50,832 nucleotides of DNA from a virus. The stretch's first letter is position 1. The number at the start of each line of letters is the position of its first letter. The DNA lies in the IMG/VR virus record IMGVR_UViG_3300025162_000066, positions 1-50,832 of that record; one strand, written 5' to 3'. The notes beneath the pieces are model-generated. The model had not been told where the DNA came from and did no database searches. It was given only the letters and a program-made list of their open reading frames with translations. Shown in pieces: positions 10,972-49,295 of this stretch. The position numbers were made by a program, and so were the translations under genes.

Positions 10972-11138
10972 TGGATACGCTGACTGGATTCCTGGTTGGT
11001 CTTTTCCTCGGAGCAGTAGGGGTTGGTATCCTGGCTGCCAAAGCCACTGAACCTCATGCAGATATCATCGCCCACCACGCCGCGCACTATGACACGACGA
11101 GCGGGAAGTTCACTTGGAACGACGAGGTGACACCATGA
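10971..11138 (+). CDS. small single-pass membrane protein, 55 aa
   Basis: ATG at 10971 overlaps the previous TGA. The first 24 residues (MDTLTGFLVGLFLGAVGVGILAAK) form one transmembrane helix; the rest is a polar, His-rich tail (IIAHHAAHYDTTSGKFTWND). The stop overlaps the next ATG (ATGA). Orientation and role are unknown. Confidence 0.5.
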   Translation: MDTLTGFLVGLFLGAVGVGILAAKATEPHADIIAHHAAHYDTTSGKFTWNDEVTP

Positions 11139-11168: not shown

Positions 11169-11176
11169 CTCTTATC
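11169..11176 (+). repeat. target-site duplication, left copy
   Basis: CTCTTATC, identical and in the same orientation as 15674-15681, directly abutting the terminal inverted repeat. An 8-bp duplication is the usual size for the IS1595 family. Confidence 0.9.
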
Positions 11177-11200
11177 CGGCATGGTGTAGCATACGCCACA
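11177..11200 (+). repeat. left terminal inverted repeat
   Basis: 24 bases beginning CGGCATGGTGTAGC and ending ACGCCACA, exactly the reverse complement of 15650-15673. Homology stops at 11201. Confidence 0.9.
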
Positions 11201-11264
11201 GAACCTAAGCGTGTATGGTGAGAGTCTGTGACAACCTAGGTTATAGCGTATGATGGGCGATGTG

Positions 11265-12185
11265 TCACCGCCCCTTAGACAGTTCAATCTTTAAGCTTGG
11301 GTCGGTTTCGTAAGTGTCAATTATCTCATTATATAATTGAAGAAGTGAATCTATACGGAGGCGACGTTCTTCCGGAACAAACCGGCCAAGCTCATAAATA
11401 TTTGTCGCAATGAACTGTTCAAATTCAACAATGTCAATTCGGTCAGTGATATTGCACTTCTCTGCAAAAACCTCAGCGGCCATAGCTCCTTTTGAGGTTG
11501 TCACAATTATAGGCTTGCGCCCAATATCGATGTTCTCCGAACATTTTCGCATAAGCGCCTCGCCGGGCGCGGTTGAAACATGGATAGAAACATCGCCCGT
11601 TTCAAAATCACCAGTCCTATTGTCAGCTTCATCATTCTCATTAGAACCATGTTGCTCGACAACGCCACGTCCAAGAACAAGGGATAGCTTGGCCCCGACG
11701 AGATGCTGCATCATAGTGCCAAGAAACATATTCCCAGGCATTTCGCGTTGTCTTTCCTCGGCTTGCCGCATCAAGCTTCGCACAACAGCCCTTAGGCCAA
11801 GTGCGCCGTCAAGTCGAAGAGTAAATGGCTTGGCTGTAAAAAAATCGCGAACACGGTTTATCCAAAATTCCTCTACATCGGTGATGCTAAATTCTGGATG
11901 GTCGTTAAGGAACGCAACGTAAGTACGCATGTTCGCGATGCTTCCGCGCGAAGTCCTTCCGCACTCTTTTGCAAGAATCCTTGTAATGCCGTGCCTAGCC
12001 AGGATCGCTTGTACCTTCCCCTGGCCTAGCCCGAGAACCTGCCCACCGCCACCAGTGATAAGGTTATCTGGGTTCAGCGGAATGCCTGATATTCTCGCAT
12101 GATCAGTTACAACTAATGCCACAGAAAGCGGCCCTTTTCCACGGAAACGGTTCGCTTTGTAAAAGTCATCGAGAAAAGAAATCAT
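11265..12185 (-). CDS. DUF4928-type predicted restriction endonuclease
   Basis: 306 aa. The sequence follows the DUF4928 family pattern: N-terminal FLDDFYKANRFRGKGPLSVALVV, then GGGGQVLGLGQGKVQAIL, the GRTSRGSIANMR block, and near residues 195-225 the block GDFETGDVSIHVSTAPGEAL followed by RKCSENIDIGRKPIIVT. The last block is acidic, then hydrophobic, then His/Ser-Thr, and could be a diverged PD-(D/E)XK core, but a canonical DXK is not obvious. The family typically neighbours 5mC methyltransferases. Here it starts 3 bases after the methyltransferase stop, which strongly implies it is the cognate nuclease. Target sequence cannot be read from the protein. Confidence 0.75.
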   Translation of the reverse strand: MISFLDDFYKANRFRGKGPLSVALVVTDHARISGIPLNPDNLITGGGGQVLGLGQGKVQAILARHGITRILAKECGRTSRGSIANMRTYVAFLNDHPEFSITDVEEFWINRVRDFFTAKPFTLRLDGALGLRAVVRSLMRQAEERQREMPGNMFLGTMMQHLVGAKLSLVLGRGVVEQHGSNENDEADNRTGDFETGDVSIHVSTAPGEALMRKCSENIDIGRKPIIVTTSKGAMAAEVFAEKCNITDRIDIVEFEQFIATNIYELGRFVPEERRLRIDSLLQLYNEIIDTYETDPSLKIELSKGR

Positions 12186-12188
12186 TTA

Positions 12189-13370
12189 TTAGGCCGCCTT
12201 CTTTGCTAAGCGCGAAAGGTTGTGACTCAAGAGAGGTTCAAAGATGTGTTGAGCAAGCCACCGGACGACGGGGACAGCCACCCCGTCACCTGCCAGATGA
12301 TAGGCTTCGTTGTAGCTCTTTGGAAGCTTATAAGTATCGGGCAACCCCATCAGCCGTGCAGCTTCACGCGGAGAGAGCAGGCGGGATCTAACTCTCCGGC
12401 TCTGGTCCACCACGATGATGCTCTGCCTTGATGATCCGCCAGAAGGTGTTCTAAGGCATCCAGCAAGATCGTCGAAGCGCACCTCGGCGCGCTGCACCTT
12501 ATCCCCGTCGTCAACGCGGGTGCGCTTGTAAACCCCGCCAACAACGAGGCGCCCCTCAGACTGAGCTATTGCCTTAGCAGCCTCAACTTTTCCAAGGTGC
12601 AAGGAGTTCATCATACCAAGTAGACGGGCCGTCTCGGCAGGGGTGTGCCAAGAACACCCCTCAGGATTGTCCTGTATTAGGTCTGAGAAACGGGACGAGC
12701 GCACAGGCGGTTCAGCAAGTTTCCACCAAACCCACATCGATTTGGCTTCTTGAGAGATGTTGGTGTAAGCCTGACGCAAAGCTTGTGGATGCCACGCCTC
12801 ATTCGGCTTACTCAGCAATAGTTTTGCCGGAATACTAATATCGGGGTGAACACCAACCACAAATACCCGAGGGCGGCTGTGGGGGAGGAACTTCGCGGCA
12901 TCGATAACCATTGCGCCAAAACGGTAGCCTGAGTGCGCAAATGTCGCTGCGATTGCGGCAAAATCCTGTCCATTATTGGATGTTAATGCTCCAAATACAT
13001 TCTCAAGGACAATTATTTTCGGAGAACGTCCATCTTTCATCAAGGACTGCATTAGACGCCAAAATGGCCAGAATGTCCCAGATCGGGTGTGGCATTTGTC
13101 CGATGATGAACCAATACCAAGGTAATTCCCTGCAAGCGAAAGGTCCTGACAAGGAAATGATGCCCATACTAAGTCAGGCGTTCCTGGAAGCTGTTTCGGG
13201 GTGATGACATTAATATCACCAAGCAACAAATCAGACTCTCCCCAATTAGCCCTATAAGCCGATGCTTTATTGGGATCAAAATCATTCGCGAAAGCACAAG
13301 CCCAATTCCTCCCAAGGCCGGCTCTAGCCATGCCACCGCCTGCGAAAAACTCAAAGAATTTATGGCTCAT
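12189..13370 (-). CDS. dcm: DNA (cytosine-5) methyltransferase
   Basis: 393 aa with the ordered C5-methyltransferase motifs: I (FFAGGGMARAGLG, residues 8-20), IV with catalytic C74 (WASFPCQDLSLAG), VI (VLENVFGAL, E123), VIII (HSRPRVFVVG), IX region (SRRVRSRLLSPREAARLMGLP) and X (GDGVAVPVVRWLAQHI). The target-recognition region lies between VIII and IX (about residues 190-310). It would protect DNA from the downstream nuclease. The start overlaps the stop of the upstream RHH gene by 4 bases (ATGA), making RHH-methyltransferase-nuclease one operon in the usual order that lets methylation precede cutting. Confidence 0.92.
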   Translation of the reverse strand: MSHKFFEFFAGGGMARAGLGRNWACAFANDFDPNKASAYRANWGESDLLLGDINVITPKQLPGTPDLVWASFPCQDLSLAGNYLGIGSSSDKCHTRSGTFWPFWRLMQSLMKDGRSPKIIVLENVFGALTSNNGQDFAAIAATFAHSGYRFGAMVIDAAKFLPHSRPRVFVVGVHPDISIPAKLLLSKPNEAWHPQALRQAYTNISQEAKSMWVWWKLAEPPVRSSRFSDLIQDNPEGCSWHTPAETARLLGMMNSLHLGKVEAAKAIAQSEGRLVVGGVYKRTRVDDGDKVQRAEVRFDDLAGCLRTPSGGSSRQSIIVVDQSRRVRSRLLSPREAARLMGLPDTYKLPKSYNEAYHLAGDGVAVPVVRWLAQHIFEPLLSHNLSRLAKKAA

Positions 13371-13534
13371 TTTGTCACCCCATCGACCTTAGTGTCGCGC
13401 TCGATCTTTTCTCGTATTGCAATCTCTATCCAAGTGTTCCGAGACACCGTGCCAGGAAGTTGCTGCCTTAGGATGTCAATCTGATTGTTTACCTCAGGTG
13501 GCAACCGGAAACTGGTGCGATTTCGCGAGTCCAT
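13367..13534 (-). CDS. ribbon-helix-helix regulator of the R-M operon, 55 aa
   Basis: From ATG 13534 the protein reads MDSRNRTSFRLPPEVNNQIDILRQQ then SRNTWIEIAIREKIE, a clear RHH pattern: a TSFRLP beta-strand followed by two helices. A longer start at 13567 adds 11 residues but has no ribosome site; GAAGGG lies upstream of 13534. Its stop overlaps the methyltransferase start. Upstream are two 8-bp palindromes TGGCGCCA spaced one helical turn, the arrangement bound by MetJ/Arc-type proteins. It likely times R-M expression, taking the place of the HTH C proteins of classical systems. Confidence 0.7.
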   Translation of the reverse strand: MDSRNRTSFRLPPEVNNQIDILRQQLPGTVSRNTWIEIAIREKIERDTKVDGVTK

Positions 13535-13598
13535 TTTTGAGCACATCCCTTCAAATGTTGGAGACATCGCGCACTGATTGCCCTAAGCTAACGCTGAT

Positions 13599-13625
13599 TA
13601 CATATGTGGCGCCAAACTGGCGCCA
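13599..13625 (-). promoter_or_regulatory. R-M operon promoter with tandem TGGCGCCA operators
   Basis: The 8-bp palindrome TGGCGCCA occurs at 13607-13614 and 13618-13625, 11 bp apart. Read leftward, TTGGCG within one palindrome can act as -35, with TATGTA (13604-13599) as -10 at 16-base spacing; an alternative -35 TTGACT lies just upstream. The palindromes therefore cover the promoter, as expected for autorepression by the RHH protein. Confidence 0.6.
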
Positions 13626-13704
13626 AAGTCAAGCCTGAATTTGCGGGATACATTGATTTTTTCCGCAACCAGAACATAACGTGAACGCTCGCGGGGTTCA
13701 AGGC

Positions 13705-13956
13705 TCAATCATTCCTCGTGCGGTTGCCGCGATGTGAGCCGCCGTCCAAGTCAAGCTTGCCTATGATAGAACGGTAGTCGATCTGCCTCTCAGCCATCTC
13801 GGCGATCAGCGCTGCGATCACCGCCATGTGGTCTGGGACGCGGCCCTGCTGGGCCTTGTTTGAAACGGTGTTGGGTGACATTCGAAGCAGTTCTGCAAAC
13901 TCACGGATGCTGATGGCTGCCTTACCAAGCTGCCGCCGAAACTCGTCGTAGGTCAT
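13705..13956 (-). CDS. XRE-type regulator divergent from the transposase, 83 aa
   Basis: ATG at 13956 (MTYDEFRRQLGKAAISIREFAELLRMSPNTVSNKAQQGRVPDHMAVI). The stretch ISIREFAELLRMSPNTVSNKAQQG is a Cro/C1-type helix-turn-helix. In-frame codons farther upstream run through the operator and are not counted. It faces the transposase across a 142-base gap with a 12-bp inverted repeat over the transposase promoter. It probably represses transposition, itself, or both. Confidence 0.75.
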   Translation of the reverse strand: MTYDEFRRQLGKAAISIREFAELLRMSPNTVSNKAQQGRVPDHMAVIAALIAEMAERQIDYRSIIGKLDLDGGSHRGNRTRND

Positions 13957-14022
13957 GATTCTTCCCAAAAAATGGTTGCCCCGTAGGGTGGTCAAGATAC
14001 CTATCACATTTGTATAGCAATG

Positions 14023-14069
14023 CCTACCATTGGTTTTGTGTTGACACCAATGGTAGGGTGTGCTAGCCT
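14023..14069 (+). promoter_or_regulatory. transposase promoter with 12-bp inverted-repeat operator
   Basis: CCTACCATTGGT (14023-14034) and ACCAATGGTAGG (14046-14057) are perfect inverted copies with an 11-base spacer. TTGACA (14041-14046), a 17-base spacer and TAGCCT (14064-14069) form a promoter reading towards the transposase; the right operator half lies inside the spacer. The binding partner is most simply the divergent XRE protein. Confidence 0.65.
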
Positions 14070-14098
14070 TGTCGAACACAGTAAGAGGGGGTTCGGCC

Positions 14099-15109
14099 AT
14101 GGCCCGTCGCTACCGCAAGCAAGGCACGCACCGCCTCAAGAAGGCGTCGGCTCGCACCATCTCCCTTGGCAACATCTTCAGAATGACCGATCTTGAGGCC
14201 GAGGCCGCCTTTGCTCGGCTCCGCTGGCACCAAAATGACGGCAAGCCAATCTGCCGGCACTGCGGCTCCTGCGACGAGCACTACGACTGTCGCCGACCAA
14301 ACGGAACGTTCCGCTACCGCTGCTCGGGGTGCGCAAAGGACATTGGCCTCACCGCTGGCACCTCGTTCGCCCATCACAAGTTGCCAATACGGGACTACCT
14401 CGCCGCCATTGTAATCTACGTTAATAATGTTAAGGGTTCTGCGGCATTGATGCTCTCGCGTGAGCTTAATGTTCAATACAAAACCGCATTCGTCCTTGAG
14501 CACAAGCTGCGCGAATGCATTCATAAAGAGGTTATGGCTAATAATATTGGAGGTCTCGACAAGATTGTTGAAATCGACGGCTGCTTTATCGGTGGCTATG
14601 AATATCCCGAAAATCGAAAAGCCAAACGCAAGGACATGCGCCGTAAGGAGAATCAGAACGGCAAGGAACAATGCGTTGTCGCCATAACCGAGCGGGGCGG
14701 TCGTACCAAAACCAAGGTGTTTCAGAGCGAAGATGATTCTGGTGAATTCATCCGCGATAACCTCGACAAGGGAACAATCGTCCACGCCGATGAGGCTCCT
14801 GCATGGGACAAGGTTGTTGCGCCTTACAAAAACTATCGGGTGAACCACTCGGTCGAATATTTTGGTGAGGACAAAGCCTGCACCAACCATGCTGAGGGAC
14901 TCTTCAACCGCCTCCGTCGGTCGGAAATTGGCATTCATCACCACATCTCTGGCGCCTACGCCGCCCGGTACGCTAACGAAATCGCATGGCGGGAAGACTT
15001 CAAAGACCTGTCGAACGGCGATCAGTTCGAGATTGTCGGTCGTCTGGTCGGCAAAACCGCGCCCAGCATTGATTTCGTCGGGTACTGGCAGCGGAATTGG
15101 GCGGCGTGA
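14099..15109 (+). CDS. tnpA: IS1595-family DDE transposase
   Basis: 336 aa. A zinc-ribbon near residues 55-85 (ICRHCGSCDEHYDC..FRYRCSGCAKD) is followed by an ISXO2-like DDE domain: EIDGCFIGG (first D, about residue 160), VHADEAPAWD (second acidic, about 228) and NHAEGLFNRLRRSEIGIHHH (third acidic E/N-H-A-E block, about 265). These are hallmarks of IS1595-type transposases. ATG at 14099 after AGAGGGGGTTCGGCC is preferred to farther upstream codons. The gene is uninterrupted and lies within intact inverted repeats, so the element could still be active. Confidence 0.92.
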   Translation: MARRYRKQGTHRLKKASARTISLGNIFRMTDLEAEAAFARLRWHQNDGKPICRHCGSCDEHYDCRRPNGTFRYRCSGCAKDIGLTAGTSFAHHKLPIRDYLAAIVIYVNNVKGSAALMLSRELNVQYKTAFVLEHKLRECIHKEVMANNIGGLDKIVEIDGCFIGGYEYPENRKAKRKDMRRKENQNGKEQCVVAITERGGRTKTKVFQSEDDSGEFIRDNLDKGTIVHADEAPAWDKVVAPYKNYRVNHSVEYFGEDKACTNHAEGLFNRLRRSEIGIHHHISGAYAARYANEIAWREDFKDLSNGDQFEIVGRLVGKTAPSIDFVGYWQRNWAA

Positions 15110-15127
15110 TATCGGCGAGCGGCACGA

Positions 15128-15580
15128 CTAGATCATCATTGGCTGCATTGGGTCCAGCAGCGACCATGTGAGTTCGCCGAACTCCCCATCGTGGCGCTGG
15201 AAGTAGCTGCGCTGCCGGCTGAGCGTCTTGTAGACCGTCCGGCGCATCTGGTCGATCACCTTCGGGTCATCGCCCGCCATCTTCTTCCGGTGCATCACCC
15301 GAGCCGTGATGGCGTTCGTCGCCATTGGCTCGTCGGCACCGCGCAGCACGTCGGCGCAGAGTCTGGTGGCCTCCTTGTTCTTGAAGAATGGGCACCGCCG
15401 CCGATACCGGCGAGCGGGGATCGATTCCGGCTCCAGGTCGGGCGCGTAGAGCCTCAGGACGGCATCGACGTGGCCCATCTCGGACCTAAAGGCGAGAGCC
15501 TGTTGCTCATGGTGCTGCGCCAGCCCGGCCAACTCGGCTCTCTTGTCGCGCAGCGCAGAAACGACATGCGGCTCACCCAT
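15128..15580 (-). CDS. transposon passenger protein, 150 aa
   Basis: ATG at 15580 (MGEPHVVSALRDKRAELAGLAQHHEQQ) follows GGAGGGGGAA on the minus strand. The N-terminus is a coiled coil of the ALRDKRAEL type followed by VDAVLRLYAPDLEPESI; the second half (EATRLCADVLRGADEPMATNAITARVMHRKKM..VYKTLSRQR) looks like a winged helix. I recall such proteins scattered in alphaproteobacteria, often beside insertion sequences and phage genes, with no known role. It is convergent with the transposase (18-base gap) and inside the right inverted repeat. Confidence 0.65.
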   Translation of the reverse strand: MGEPHVVSALRDKRAELAGLAQHHEQQALAFRSEMGHVDAVLRLYAPDLEPESIPARRYRRRCPFFKNKEATRLCADVLRGADEPMATNAITARVMHRKKMAGDDPKVIDQMRRTVYKTLSRQRSYFQRHDGEFGELTWSLLDPMQPMMI

Positions 15581-15649
15581 TTCCCCCTCCCTGGAGACCA
15601 GCGAATGGGGAATTCTGCTATGCAGCAGCGGGGAACACAATTAAAGCCT

Positions 15650-15673
15650 TGTGGCGTATGCTACACCATGCCG
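15650..15673 (-). repeat. right terminal inverted repeat
   Basis: Exact reverse complement of 11177-11200 over 24 bases. Confidence 0.9.
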
Positions 15674-15681
15674 CTCTTATC
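15674..15681 (+). repeat. target-site duplication, right copy
   Basis: CTCTTATC, same as 11169-11176. It contains the complement of the holin TAA stop (15677-15679), so duplication preserved the holin reading frame. Confidence 0.9.
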
Positions 15682-16204
15682 GCACTGAGAGCTTTGCGGC
15701 CATAGCGTCAGCTCCTTTAGAACTGCCGTAGAAATAGCTCACCATGGTTCCCCAACCGGCCCCGAGTGCTCCGAGCATGATGTTGAGGATGTCGCGACTG
15801 CCTACAGGCGGTTCGTGGCTCACAAGCCAGCCTAAAAGACCGAAGAACCCTACAGTGAGGACGATAGCCAGCACGCCGGGAACCCAGTCTTTCACGGCGA
15901 TTTCCCGCTGGCGCGCGGAGTCCCGATCCTTCTGCGCCAAGGTCTCCAGGTCGATACCGGCCTTCTGGAGAGCCTCGGCGTGCCGGTTGTCCTCGGCCTT
16001 GAGCGCCAGGATTTGCTCCGGCGTGGCGTTGGCGCAGGCGGCCAGGGCTTTGTTGGCGTCGCCGGTCGGAGTGATGCCGAGCACGGATTCGATCGCGGTG
16101 ACGGCCGTGCCGGCGAGCGGGCCGCCGATCATGGTGGCGAGAGTCGGGGCGTACTGGGCGAGGCTGTTGAGCCCAGCCTCGGCGATGTCGGAGAAGATAC
16201 TCAT
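15677..16204 (-). CDS. holin, GTA three-TM type
   Basis: 175 aa. The N-terminal amphipathic/hydrophobic region (LATMIGGPLAGTAVTAI, about residues 22-40), a middle helical region (EQILALKAEDNRHAEALQKAGIDLETLAQKDRDSARQR) and two strong C-terminal TM helices (VPGVLAIVLTVGFFGLLGWLV; LNIMLGALGAGWGTMVSYFYGSSKGAD) match the three-TM holin family of gene transfer agents and alphaproteobacterial phages. It would permeabilise the inner membrane for the endolysin encoded just upstream. It is the last gene of the late operon; the transposon inserted directly at its stop codon without altering it. Confidence 0.8.
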   Translation of the reverse strand: MSIFSDIAEAGLNSLAQYAPTLATMIGGPLAGTAVTAIESVLGITPTGDANKALAACANATPEQILALKAEDNRHAEALQKAGIDLETLAQKDRDSARQREIAVKDWVPGVLAIVLTVGFFGLLGWLVSHEPPVGSRDILNIMLGALGAGWGTMVSYFYGSSKGADAMAAKLSVR

Positions 16205-45424: not shown

Positions 45425-45572
45425 GGTTGCTGTCCGGAATGGGTCTGCTGGCGATCACGCCATAAGCCGCGTGCGGGCCGCGCTGTGGGGTAATCGTCCA
45501 GCCGTCGTCGAGGTAGCGTTGCTGGTCGGCGTAGCTGATGTAGCGGCACTCGGTGATGTCACCGGCCGGCAT
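45393..45572 (-). CDS. small YISYADQQRYLDDGW protein, 59 aa
   Basis: ATG at 45572 (MPAGDITECRYISYADQQRYLDDGWTITPQRGPHAAYGVIASRPIP) overlaps the upstream methyltransferase stop by 14 bases and extends 32 bases into terS. The core YISYADQQRYLDDGW...GPHAAYGVIA is repeated in the 46905-47255 gene, with near-identical DNA. Function is unknown; the motif recurs as a small stand-alone phage domain. Confidence 0.6.
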   Translation of the reverse strand: MPAGDITECRYISYADQQRYLDDGWTITPQRGPHAAYGVIASRPIPDSNHAPQTLPPHP

Positions 45573-46890
45573 TCTTGATCTCGTCGAACGTGCGGCCATC
45601 GGACTCAAGTTTAGCCAGTTGCCCGCTGAACTGTTGGAACCGACGAACGGCAACGTCAACGTATTCCGGGGCCAGTTCGCAGCCGTAGCAACTGCGGCCG
45701 TTTTTCTGGGCGCTGATAAGCTGCGTGCCGCTGCCCATAAACGGCTCGTATATCAAGTCGTCTGGATCGCTGAATGCTGTCATCATCTCCGAAACGAGAT
45801 CGACTGGAAACACTGCCGGATGCGCAGTCTCAATCCCACGCGCTTTGTGGCGCATCACTCGGACGACGCTATCTGGTATCTTCCTGTCTTGGACGTTCTT
45901 CCCGATGGCTGTATATCCACCGACTTTCCCGTCTTTCCCTCGCATCCCAGTCCCGTGGTTGGCGGAACCAGCGTGCTTCGACTCTTTCGTCTTCCGCGCT
46001 TTCTCAGCCACGCGGTTGAAGTGGAAGATGAACTCGTGCGATGGCGCTAGTCGGCCATTCCAATCGCCGGGCAGTCCCGGACCCTGATCCCAGACGTACC
46101 AGCCGAAGCGGCGATATCCGGCGGTCCTCATCCACTCGACCCAGCCGTCCCAATAGGGCATCCACTCGCCATCGCGGTGGACGAGCCCGAGATTTACCAA
46201 GACTTGAGCTTCGTGCTTGACCGGTAGGATTGAGAACACGCCCTGCATCAGAGCATCCCAATCGTTGATCCCGCCGGATTTGTAGTCGCGCTGTTGCGCG
46301 TAGGGCGGGGACGTGAAACACAGATCGGCTTGTTTGCCCAACATCAGCTTTTCGATAACGTCGGCGCTTGTGCTATCGCCGCACACGATCCGATGCCTCC
46401 CGAGCACCCAGACATCGCCGAGCACGCTAACCGGGTCGGCCGGCGTCTCCGGCGTGTCATCGGGGTCAGTCAGCCCCTCAGTCTCTTCCGCCAGCAACTC
46501 AGCAATCTCGTCGCCGTCGAAACCGGTCAGTTCGAGATCGAACCCCTCGGCTTGTAGCTCGCCCAACTCCAGCGCCAGCAGTTCGTCGTCCCACTCAGCC
46601 CAGTTTGCCGACTTGTTCGCCAGCAGGCGGAACGCTTTGATCTGCGCGTCGGTTAAGTCATCAGCGAGTGCAACCGGAACAGTCTCAAGCCCGAGTTTTC
46701 TTGCTGCCTTCAGTCGCAAGTGGCCGTCGACCACGGTGCCGTCCGACTTTGCCACCACCGGGATACGAAAGCCGAACTCACGAATAGCGGCGCACATCTT
46801 GTCAACGACAGCATCGTTCTTGCGCGGATTGCGGGCGTAGTCTACCAGTTTATCGGTCGGCCACTGTTCTACGCGCAATTCAGTGTTCAT
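45559..46890 (-). CDS. ParB-domain DNA methyltransferase 1 (beta-type)
   Basis: 443 aa from ATG 46890 (MNTELRVEQWPTDKLVDYARNPRKND). Residues about 5-110 are a ParB/Sulfiredoxin-like domain (FRIPVVAKSDGTVVDGHLRLKAARKLG). The methyltransferase part has motif IV TSPPYAQQRDYKSGG (about residue 190) and, later, motif I FMGSGTQLISAQKNGRSCYGCEL (about 395), the DPPY-before-FxGxG order of beta-type adenine-N6/cytosine-N4 enzymes. Upstream in-frame codons are not used because they overlap another gene. Likely modifies phage DNA; specificity unknown. Flanked by the two copies of the YISYADQQ gene. Confidence 0.88.
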   Translation of the reverse strand: MNTELRVEQWPTDKLVDYARNPRKNDAVVDKMCAAIREFGFRIPVVAKSDGTVVDGHLRLKAARKLGLETVPVALADDLTDAQIKAFRLLANKSANWAEWDDELLALELGELQAEGFDLELTGFDGDEIAELLAEETEGLTDPDDTPETPADPVSVLGDVWVLGRHRIVCGDSTSADVIEKLMLGKQADLCFTSPPYAQQRDYKSGGINDWDALMQGVFSILPVKHEAQVLVNLGLVHRDGEWMPYWDGWVEWMRTAGYRRFGWYVWDQGPGLPGDWNGRLAPSHEFIFHFNRVAEKARKTKESKHAGSANHGTGMRGKDGKVGGYTAIGKNVQDRKIPDSVVRVMRHKARGIETAHPAVFPVDLVSEMMTAFSDPDDLIYEPFMGSGTQLISAQKNGRSCYGCELAPEYVDVAVRRFQQFSGQLAKLESDGRTFDEIKNAGR

Positions 46891-46904
46891 AGTTCCGATT
46901 TTTC

Positions 46905-47255
46905 CTATTTTATCCCAAAAACCGGCGCCACAACCGACCACAGCCCATTCCCCAGCGCCCCGATCACCAGGTCTCCGACGAGGTACAGCACCGTCCCGAC
47001 CATCGCCGCGCTGACAGTAATCGTGTACTGCCGGCGATGCGCCTGGACGTGCCGCACGACGCGGCGCTTGCGGGTCTCGGTCATCGGTATTTCCCTGGTC
47101 GCGATCACGCCGTAAGCTGCATGAGGTCCGGTTTGGGGCATCAGTTCCCAACCGTCATCGAGATAGCGTTGCTGGTCGGCGTAGCTGATATAGCGATGCT
47201 CGGTTATTTTCTCCCGCCCACCGAACCCAGCCTCTGATTCGTTCTTTAACATCAT
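46905..47255 (-). CDS. YISYADQQ-domain membrane protein, 116 aa
   Basis: Residues about 18-55 repeat the YISYADQQRYLDDGW...GPHAAYGVIA motif of the 45393-45572 protein; residues about 80-112 are hydrophobic (ITVSAAMVGTVLYLVGDLVIGALGNGLWSVVAPVFG), making one or two TM helices. The start is uncertain: ATG 47255 overlaps the upstream gene by about 100 bases and lacks a clear ribosome site, but no later ATG keeps the motif. Stop is 14 bases from the next start. Confidence 0.5.
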   Translation of the reverse strand: MMLKNESEAGFGGREKITEHRYISYADQQRYLDDGWELMPQTGPHAAYGVIATREIPMTETRKRRVVRHVQAHRRQYTITVSAAMVGTVLYLVGDLVIGALGNGLWSVVAPVFGIK

Positions 47256-47598
47256 CTATATTGGCCGGTTTCCATCTACTCATCTTGCCAGAATGAAAAA
47301 CGGCATACCTCTCGATTTTCATGGTTTCGGGATCGCCAACAATCACGAAGACATGCCATGCGGGATTTGATGCCATCCGCTCGTACATGATGGCCTGACC
47401 CCGGCCAATATCTCCGCTTATGCTCTGCTTCCACTCAAGAAGGAGGAAGTTTCCATTCAGTTCGGCAATTCCGTCGATGTCGCCAAAAGCCATGTTTCCG
47501 GGAAGACACTCCGCAAAGAGTTCAATCTTTGGGCGCTTCTTGAGATTGAAACAGCCCTTGCTGTCGCAATCCCATCGAAGCGGGTTTGCCCGGCCCAT
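47155..47598 (-). CDS. PD-(D/E)XK-like phage protein, 147 aa
   Basis: Residues about 37-60 (MAFGDIDGIAELNGNFLLLEWKQS) carry an acidic D-x-D/G then hydrophobic strand then E-W-K, the layout of PD-(D/E)XK nucleases (catalytic D, E-x-K). Then GRGQAIMYERM and a beta section (PAWHVFVIVGDPETMKIERYAVFHSGKM) follow. Cys residues near the start (CDSKGCFNLKKRPKIE) may bind zinc. It could be a Holliday-junction-type or Vsr-like nuclease; the family is not certain. It sits between the two ParB-methyltransferases. Confidence 0.6.
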   Translation of the reverse strand: MGRANPLRWDCDSKGCFNLKKRPKIELFAECLPGNMAFGDIDGIAELNGNFLLLEWKQSISGDIGRGQAIMYERMASNPAWHVFVIVGDPETMKIERYAVFHSGKMSRWKPANIDDVKERIRGWVRWAGENNRASLYQLRRPATLSR

Positions 47599-47619
47599 GG
47601 CCGATGCTCCTGGTGCCGA

Positions 47620-49206
47620 TTACGCCAGCCGCTGCTTTGCCGCGTCAAAGAACGTCTGGTCGATCTCGAACCCGATGAACCTACGGCCCGACTTCTTCGC
47701 TACAGCGGCCGTAGTCCCGACCCCCATGAATCCGTCAAGAACCGTGTCGCCCGGAACGGTGACGCACTCCATCAGGTGGCGGATCACAGCTTCCGGCTTC
47801 TGCGTCGGGTGCAGGCTGGCGCTTTCATCGGCCCGCGCCCCCTGACGCTTAATCCGCTCTCCACCGCCGCAGATCGGGAAGCGGCGCCAGTTGAATCCGT
47901 CTCCGTCCGCATCTCCGGGATAGTTGAATGTTCGCTTGGCTCCCGGCTTCACGAACTGGATTGCATAATCCATTGCCGGCATGAAGTCGGCTTGGGTCAT
48001 GCTTGCGCCGGGATTGGTTCGGCACCAGAAGAACGTGCCCTTGATCTCGAACCCGGCCGCCTCAAAGATGTCCTGTGCGACGTTGAAATACCGCTCTCCG
48101 ACGAACATGAATCCCGTTCCGCCGGGCTTGAGCACTCGCGCGAACGACGCGGCCCACGCGCTAATCATGCCCTTGAACTCAGCATGGTCGACATTGTCCC
48201 ATGCGCCGAAATTTTTCTCGATGTTGGCGCCGTCAGTCCGCGTATAGGTTCGATCCTGGCTAATGTTGTACGGCGGATCGGTGATGATGGCGTCGATTGA
48301 TCCAGACGGCAACTTCTCGATTTCCTGAGCGAAATCGCCTCGTATCAAAGTGATCGCGTGCAGCTTTTTGTGTGCATCGCGCTTCGCTTCAACTAGTTTC
48401 CCGAGCCGCGCCCCCGATCCGCTTGCGGCCTTCCATTCGTCGTCATAGATGCCCTTGGCGACTTCGGCGAGGGCACCATCAAGGATATCAGCATCAACCG
48501 CCGACAGTTCCTTGCGTACCCAGTCCGTCGCCTCGTTTCGCGACTTCAGGTTCTCGGCCTGCGTCTTGAACTGGGACTTCTTGATATGGCCGGCGGCGAG
48601 GCGGGTGACGAGGTCGAGTTGCTGGGCTGGGGTGAGGGCGAGGATCGATCGGAGAAGGTTCTCAGAGAATGTGCCGTCCGTCACATTGGCTGTGACGCCA
48701 TCTTCCCCCGAGGTTGTGACGGACCTTACAGCCGTCGTCACAACATCCCACGCGCTTACCGAAATCGCTTTCATGGCCGCGAACTTGGCGATGGCGTCCC
48801 GACTCTTCCCCAACTCATCCGCCACTGCCTGCTGTGTCTGGCCGGCGTCCAGTTTGCGCCATACCAGCTCGGCGATGTCCACGAAGGTGTTCGGCAGAGC
48901 GTCGGCGCTCGCGTCGTTATCCTCGATGGCGGCTCGGTCCAGGCTCTCCGGCTCGGGGGCGATGAACATTGGGACTTCGGAAAGCCCCAGTTCAAGCGCT
49001 ACCTCATAGCGATGATTGCCGGCCCAGAGCTTGCCTTCGGCCGTCACGCAAAGCGGATGCTGCGCAAGAAAGCCGATGCGCTCGATCTTCGCCTTCACGG
49101 CCGCTTTGTGGGCGGCGTTTACCGGCCGAACCATGTGGCGGCTGGTAACAAAGGAAATCGAACGCAGCATGGTATTCTCCGCAGATGCGGCGTTGGTCGT
49201 GGTCAT
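47620..49206 (-). CDS. ParB/HTH-domain DNA methyltransferase 2 (beta-type)
   Basis: 528 aa from ATG 49206 (MTTTNAASAENTMLRSISF). N-terminal ParB-like nuclease fold (FLAQHPLCVTAEGKLWAGNHRYEVALELGLSEVPMF, about residues 45-85), then a KorB/ParB-type HTH (AGQTQQAVADELGKSRDAIAKFAAM, about 120-145). Methyltransferase motif IV ITDPPYN is near residue 308 and motif I FMGVGTTAAVAKKSGRRFIGFEI near 500, with HPTQKP between. Beta-type order. It shares domain plan but not close sequence with methyltransferase 1. GAAGGAGACACCACATC precedes the start. Confidence 0.88.
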   Translation of the reverse strand: MTTTNAASAENTMLRSISFVTSRHMVRPVNAAHKAAVKAKIERIGFLAQHPLCVTAEGKLWAGNHRYEVALELGLSEVPMFIAPEPESLDRAAIEDNDASADALPNTFVDIAELVWRKLDAGQTQQAVADELGKSRDAIAKFAAMKAISVSAWDVVTTAVRSVTTSGEDGVTANVTDGTFSENLLRSILALTPAQQLDLVTRLAAGHIKKSQFKTQAENLKSRNEATDWVRKELSAVDADILDGALAEVAKGIYDDEWKAASGSGARLGKLVEAKRDAHKKLHAITLIRGDFAQEIEKLPSGSIDAIITDPPYNISQDRTYTRTDGANIEKNFGAWDNVDHAEFKGMISAWAASFARVLKPGGTGFMFVGERYFNVAQDIFEAAGFEIKGTFFWCRTNPGASMTQADFMPAMDYAIQFVKPGAKRTFNYPGDADGDGFNWRRFPICGGGERIKRQGARADESASLHPTQKPEAVIRHLMECVTVPGDTVLDGFMGVGTTAAVAKKSGRRFIGFEIDQTFFDAAKQRLA

Positions 49207-49219
49207 GATGTGGTGTCTC

Positions 49220-49295
49220 CTTCGGGGTCCGGAAGCTGCCAAGCCCCGGACGCGGACGGGTGCCGCAGGTTAATGCGGCCATCCAGACCCCGAAG
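49220..49295 (-). promoter_or_regulatory. long inverted repeat covering methyltransferase 2 ribosome site
   Basis: CTTCGGGGTC (49220-49229) and GACCCCGAAG (49286-49295) are perfect 10-bp inverted repeats 56 bases apart. On the mRNA the 3' arm runs directly into the GGAG ribosome site of methyltransferase 2, so pairing could mask translation initiation. Confidence 0.45.

Follow-up and report, generated by a model that had tools for sequence, protein, structure and literature searches.

We analyzed a window of 50,832 nt, the whole of the IMG/VR record IMGVR_UViG_3300025162_000066, in which positions 11177–15673 hold a transposon of 4,497 bp. Six genes lie between its ends, four of which had been named in a preliminary description of this DNA; the gene for the accessory protein and the helix-turn-helix (HTH) gene had been overlooked. 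The features of the element, from left to right, are as follows.

11169..11176, no strand: left copy of the target duplication, CTCTTATC, matching 15674–15681 at 8/8 positions
11177..11200, plus strand: left terminal inverted repeat, CGGCATGGTGTAGCATACGCCACA, complementary to the right end at 24/24 positions and fitting the family consensus CGGCATTATGTAGCAAACGCACCA
11265..12185, minus strand: putative type II restriction endonuclease, DUF4928, 306 aa (PF16280, 4.5e-49; PADLOC REase_II, 2e-37)
12189..13370, minus strand: DNA cytosine-5 methyltransferase, 393 aa (PF00145, 6.9e-45; TIGR00675 dcm, 4.6e-41; M.HhaI, 4.1e-24)
13367..13567, minus strand: small ORF (66 aa) within the restriction–modification (R-M) operon, which may encode a ribbon-helix-helix regulator and has a conserved counterpart in L034, an operon on an Azospirillum plasmid
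13705..13956, minus strand: HTH gene linked to R-M systems, 83 aa, with sub-threshold HTH matches and relatives beside methyltransferases in L064, L169, L171, and L172
14099..15109, plus strand: IS1595-family DDE transposase, 336 aa (PF12762, 2.7e-36; PF12760, 1.2e-6; NF033547, 2.4e-37)
15128..15580, minus strand: core accessory protein, 150 aa, coiled coil plus winged helix, kept in sister elements (model pLDDT 92)
15650..15673, minus strand: right terminal inverted repeat, complementary to the left end at 24/24 positions and fitting the sister consensus
15674..15681, no strand: right copy of the target duplication, CTCTTATC, overlapping the stop codon of the holin-like gene 15677–16204 (minus strand)

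The perfect 24-bp inverted ends and the perfect 8-bp direct repeat that had been read from this DNA earlier proved right to the base. No perfect inverted repeat in the window with arms 1–8 kb apart is longer than this 24-bp pair; at the same spacing, the longest inverted repeats in 40 versions of the window shuffled as 2-base blocks measured 13–17 bp, versus the 24 bp observed. Ends of ≈20 to 25 bp that are common to relatives and an 8-bp target duplication are both marks of the IS1595 family, and both are present here. The transposase and the 150-aa gene are convergent, and the HTH gene is divergent from the transposase. On the right, the holin-like gene is intact despite the duplication over its stop codon; on the left, the element interrupts a small ORF beginning at 11135, which would encode 21 aa if the flanks were joined.

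Genes for an integrase, exonuclease VIII, a terminase large subunit, a head protease, ParB-methyltransferase proteins, and a peptidoglycan-binding endolysin identify the record as a temperate phage, and phage genes flank the element on both sides. The G+C content of the element is 53% (48–52% in its nuclease and methyltransferase genes), compared with 61% in the remaining, phage part. The neighbor that had been called a holin has a holin-like look and adjoins the endolysin gene, but its match, phrog_1544, is a PHROG without an assigned function, so we call it holin-like only. At 45559–49242, the matches of two adjacent genes are to DNA methyltransferase and ParB-like PHROGs; besides that of the transposon, the phage thus has methyltransferase genes of its own. 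A contig with a 68% identical terminase was considered as a relative of the phage and set aside, having little else in common with it.

The transposase combines a DDE_Tnp_IS1595 domain (PF12762) with a zinc ribbon (PF12760), every match being over its cut-off, and this pairing of an ISXO2-like DDE domain with a zinc ribbon is the protein-level mark of the IS1595 family. Residues D160, D231, and E266 are invariant in our alignment (A1). It is the only DDE transposase inside the ends, as had been proposed. The structural model of the accessory protein weakly matched the winged helices of Fur and forkhead.

The nuclease and methyltransferase assignments of the preliminary description likewise held up in the family searches listed above. 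A C5 methyltransferase gene paired with a type II nuclease gene, one mark of a type II R-M system of the DUF4928 kind, is present here, and the same pair occurs in an Azospirillum plasmid (L034) and in L173. The structural model of the DUF4928 protein (pLDDT 36) is too poor to use and leaves the nuclease fold unconfirmed. We found no DUF4928 relatives in viral contigs or phage records and only one in 385 genomes of the class to which the Magnetospirillum element L064 belongs; the fetched stretch around that single relative holds no transposase relative. At L173:52–1707, the end of a methyltransferase gene, a DUF4928 gene, and a Vsr-like gene stand in a row without a transposase. Five viral contigs (L157–L161) encode methyltransferases 55–67% identical to that of the window, with no DUF4928 relative in the fetched stretches, and these are possibly solitary phage methyltransferases.

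Two small genes are candidates for the regulator of the R-M set. The 66-aa ORF gave sub-threshold or chance-level matches, none convincing, in Pfam, NCBIfam, and the PDB, and it is kept at the equivalent place in the Azospirillum plasmid operon with 53% identity over 47 aa. Among 297 genomes of the order to which L064 belongs, five contain relatives of the HTH gene. These relatives lie beside C5 methyltransferases in L064 and L171, beside an MT-A70-like methyltransferase and a possible nuclease in L169, and beside a 1016-aa possible type IIG protein in L172, with a further one at a contig end (L170); the functional names in L169, L171, and L172 come from our reading of the sequences, not from family scans. 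Because these relatives adjoin other R-M-type gene sets, a role in R-M regulation is more probable for the HTH gene than one in transposition, and it is a likelier regulator of the R-M set than the ribbon-helix-helix protein suggested previously. In both L169 and L172, the HTH gene immediately precedes the other probable R-M genes, with no transposase relative nearby. As a marker, the HTH family may help to locate R-M sets in genomes of the Rhodospirillales type.

Single-sequence searches of viral and genome contigs with the transposase returned no relatives, and a search with a transposase alignment yielded 80 genome loci and 42 viral loci. Plasmid-borne relatives, some with extra genes and some without, resemble the element in their ends, are flanked by 8-bp duplications, and carry the same accessory gene. 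From the plasmid, genome, and viral loci together, we delimited 82 sister elements by fixing their ends and a 7- to 8-bp duplication, selecting candidates by a procedure that required repeats and rewarded a short core motif. Their hosts are mostly alphaproteobacterial. The duplication is perfect (8/8) in 80 of the 83 elements, window included, a rate that is not an independent test because the selection required repeats; the end consensus is conserved well past the scored motif. Among the duplications of 80 elements, we observed a weak palindromic preference, roughly GAAATTTC.

Lengths range from 1576 to 6256 bp, and the accessory and small HTH families have 79 and 55 members, respectively, in the 83 elements. 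Five sisters of ≈1.6 kb consist of the core only, and three loci missed by the filter (L036, L038, and L041) are core-only in appearance. In L035, whose transposase is the nearest relative (61%), the left end directly precedes the transposase gene. A passenger-carrying member of the family (tIS) is recognized by nontransposition genes inside the ends and by cargo-free relatives, and we found both. The single-transposase architecture, thought at first to be uncommon, is the standard plan of the 82 sister elements. Among the 17 sisters on viral contigs, the flanking proteins include several terminases, integrases, an endolysin, and a head-tail adaptor, indicating that a location in or near phage genes recurs.

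The sisters include elements both with and without R-M cargo. Two other intact elements carry unrelated R-M sets, acquired independently. One (L064:4837–9641, Magnetospirillum sp. 64-120) encodes a NotI-like nuclease, Vsr, a C5 methyltransferase only 24% identical to that of the window, and a related HTH protein; the other (L078) encodes a 589-aa protein that we read as a methyltransferase–Mrr fusion. A further element, L171, is decayed and contains a C5-methyltransferase-like gene together with the HTH gene. In the tree, the window groups with L035, and L064 and L078 fall in another clade; given the supported branches, the R-M label must have changed at least twice.

Most sisters carry cargo, which is highly variable. 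A cargo family is held in common by 12 of 43 element pairs with transposases 80 to 90% identical and by 7 of 12 pairs at ≥90% identity, where some cargo ORFs will be spurious because the gene calls were mechanical. The 111 sister cargo proteins have few Pfam matches, mostly to defense or toxin–antitoxin families: C5 and N6/N4 methyltransferases, Vsr, NotI, Mrr, Abi_2, SocA/Panacea (4), dCTP deaminase-like proteins (3), nucleotidyl cyclase plus NUDIX, IrrE peptidase (2), Fic, and DUF3800. PADLOC added BstA (2), mads_2 (2), capP, SoFic, and several PDC families. Cargo of other kinds comprises phage-type KilA-N/Bro-N domains and one OMP decarboxylase. For comparison, 58 flanking proteins of the same elements matched 43 Pfam families, with metabolic, transport, or regulatory functions prevailing among the 25 listed, and only nine PADLOC families, from a few proteins. 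These counts are per family, not per protein, and one methyltransferase matches many PADLOC models; the excess of defense functions in the cargo is thus clear in kind and not exactly measured.

Two further kinds of cargo deserve mention. A 4.8-kb sister on a Methylobacterium aquaticum plasmid (L029:4654–9456) carries a nucleotidyl-cyclase/NUDIX protein and a membrane protein, a pair reminiscent of cyclic-nucleotide defense pairs. The commonest cargo family, found in 15 elements (L043, L048, L061, L062, L065, L091, L093, L094, L101, L102, L108, L111, L144, L148, and L154), consists of putative membrane-anchored proteins of about 255 to 346 aa.

Taken together, these data make it very probable that a passenger-carrying IS1595-family transposon captured a set of R-M genes and inserted beside a phage lysis gene. 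The core would be the transposase and the winged-helix accessory protein between ≈25-bp ends, with the type II R-M set (HTH regulator, small ORF, C5 methyltransferase, and DUF4928 nuclease) presumably captured between the left end and the transposase; conservation of the operon as a unit outside a transposon in Azospirillum and the G+C content of the R-M genes, below that of the phage, support such a capture. Insertion with an 8-bp duplication would then have taken place immediately downstream of the lysis gene, leaving it intact. We propose that the transposase and accessory protein act on the ends, that the methyltransferase shields phage and host DNA, and that the nuclease cuts unmodified incoming DNA, through which lysogens would gain phage resistance and the element would gain carriage and retention. 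The locus had been described as a self-mobile defense island on a phage. An IS1595-type transposon with R-M cargo in a temperate phage stands, on the evidence of the sister ends, the cargo-free forms, and the phage flanks, and its spread by transposition is well supported by its anatomy and its relatives; we infer its defense function and present mobility.

Alternatively, the R-M set might act chiefly as an addiction module, preventing loss of the transposon and prophage, with phage defense as a by-product. An addiction role has been proposed for type II R-M sets carried by integrative elements (PMC5704250), and toxin–antitoxin-type cargo (SocA/Panacea and Fic) is found in the sisters too, but much of the other recognizable sister cargo (the BstA, Abi_2, cyclase, and dCTP deaminase families) is of an anti-phage type. 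We regard addiction as the main role as rather unlikely, and the two roles are mutually compatible.

The element is present once in the record. An exact search of viral contigs with a 17-nt stretch of its end returned only two unrelated chance matches, and an exact search of viral contigs with the 22-nt junction of an empty site gave no match. Relatives of the holin-like gene, other than that of the identical contig L004, are 44–69% identical and cannot serve as empty sites, as they do not align across the insertion point. The single copy and the two chance matches, along with the existence of the decayed relative L171, could fit a formerly mobile insertion that is now fixed in the phage. Against this, neither the ends nor the duplication contains a mismatch, and the transposase retains an intact reading frame, its zinc ribbon, and its DDE residues; we consider a dead insertion improbable.

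L004 is a viral contig identical to the phage over 9554 bp. It spans the right junction, stops after 23 nt of the element's right end (L004:9532–9554), and at its other end extends 4.7 kb beyond the window. Its stop at the right end resembles a branch in an assembly graph, and there could be further copies or rearranged forms in that sample. An assembly chimera of a bacterial transposon and a phage contig, which this stop and the origin of the window as one metagenome-type contig might suggest, is scarcely credible, since a perfect 8-bp duplication flanking the element is a trace of transposition that a chimera does not leave, and the right junction is also found in L004, a second contig.

Capture of R-M genes by a passenger-carrying transposon remains our preferred reading. 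The element belongs to a transposon family that is large, little described, and mostly alphaproteobacterial, and in which recognizable cargo consists mostly of bacterial immunity genes. Whether the clade as a whole represents compact, single-transposase "defense transposons" of Alphaproteobacteria and their phages is an evenly balanced proposition: the core (transposase, winged-helix accessory protein, and often a small HTH gene) would swap mainly immunity and toxin–antitoxin cargo between chromosomes, plasmids, and temperate phages. If so, its many cargo genes without an assignment would be candidates for undescribed defense systems. Because the recognizable cargo is mostly defense-related and most cargo is unassigned, the cargo slots offer a testable hunting ground for new defense genes. 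The ends, the duplication length, and the core genes provide a simple search key with which to delimit many more elements. The element would also represent an autonomous route for a complete R-M set into a phage genome, separate from phage recombination.

The open literature that we searched contains no report of R-M or recurrent defense cargo in IS1595 elements; the 2009 paper on the family lies outside the literature covered, so priority is uncertain. IS1595-family elements with passenger genes are already known, namely tISCpe8 and MTnSag1 (tISSag10) (PMC5704250), which share with our element an IS1595 DDE transposase, ≈25-bp inverted ends, a target duplication, and passenger genes. They differ in coming from Firmicutes and in being mobilizable by conjugation (PMC5704250), and the cargo of tISCpe8 is lincomycin resistance rather than an R-M set; the window element, unlike them, has a winged-helix accessory gene and is located in a phage. 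A parallel in cargo is the operon of plasmid p07 of Azospirillum sp. TSH58 (L034), where the order of small ORF, methyltransferase, and DUF4928 is preserved (53, 65, and 63% identity), although no IS1595 transposase was found in the fetched stretch. The L064 element has the same type of ends, an 8-bp duplication, a transposase of the same family, the accessory gene, and the HTH gene (48%), whereas its R-M set is a different one. Tn7-like transposons with defense cargo are also known (PMC8649781; PMC10121019) and resemble the present family in joining a transposon core to exchangeable, largely defensive cargo (PMC8649781), but they rely on multi-protein transposition machinery, whereas the family described here uses one DDE transposase in elements of 1.6 to 6.3 kb.
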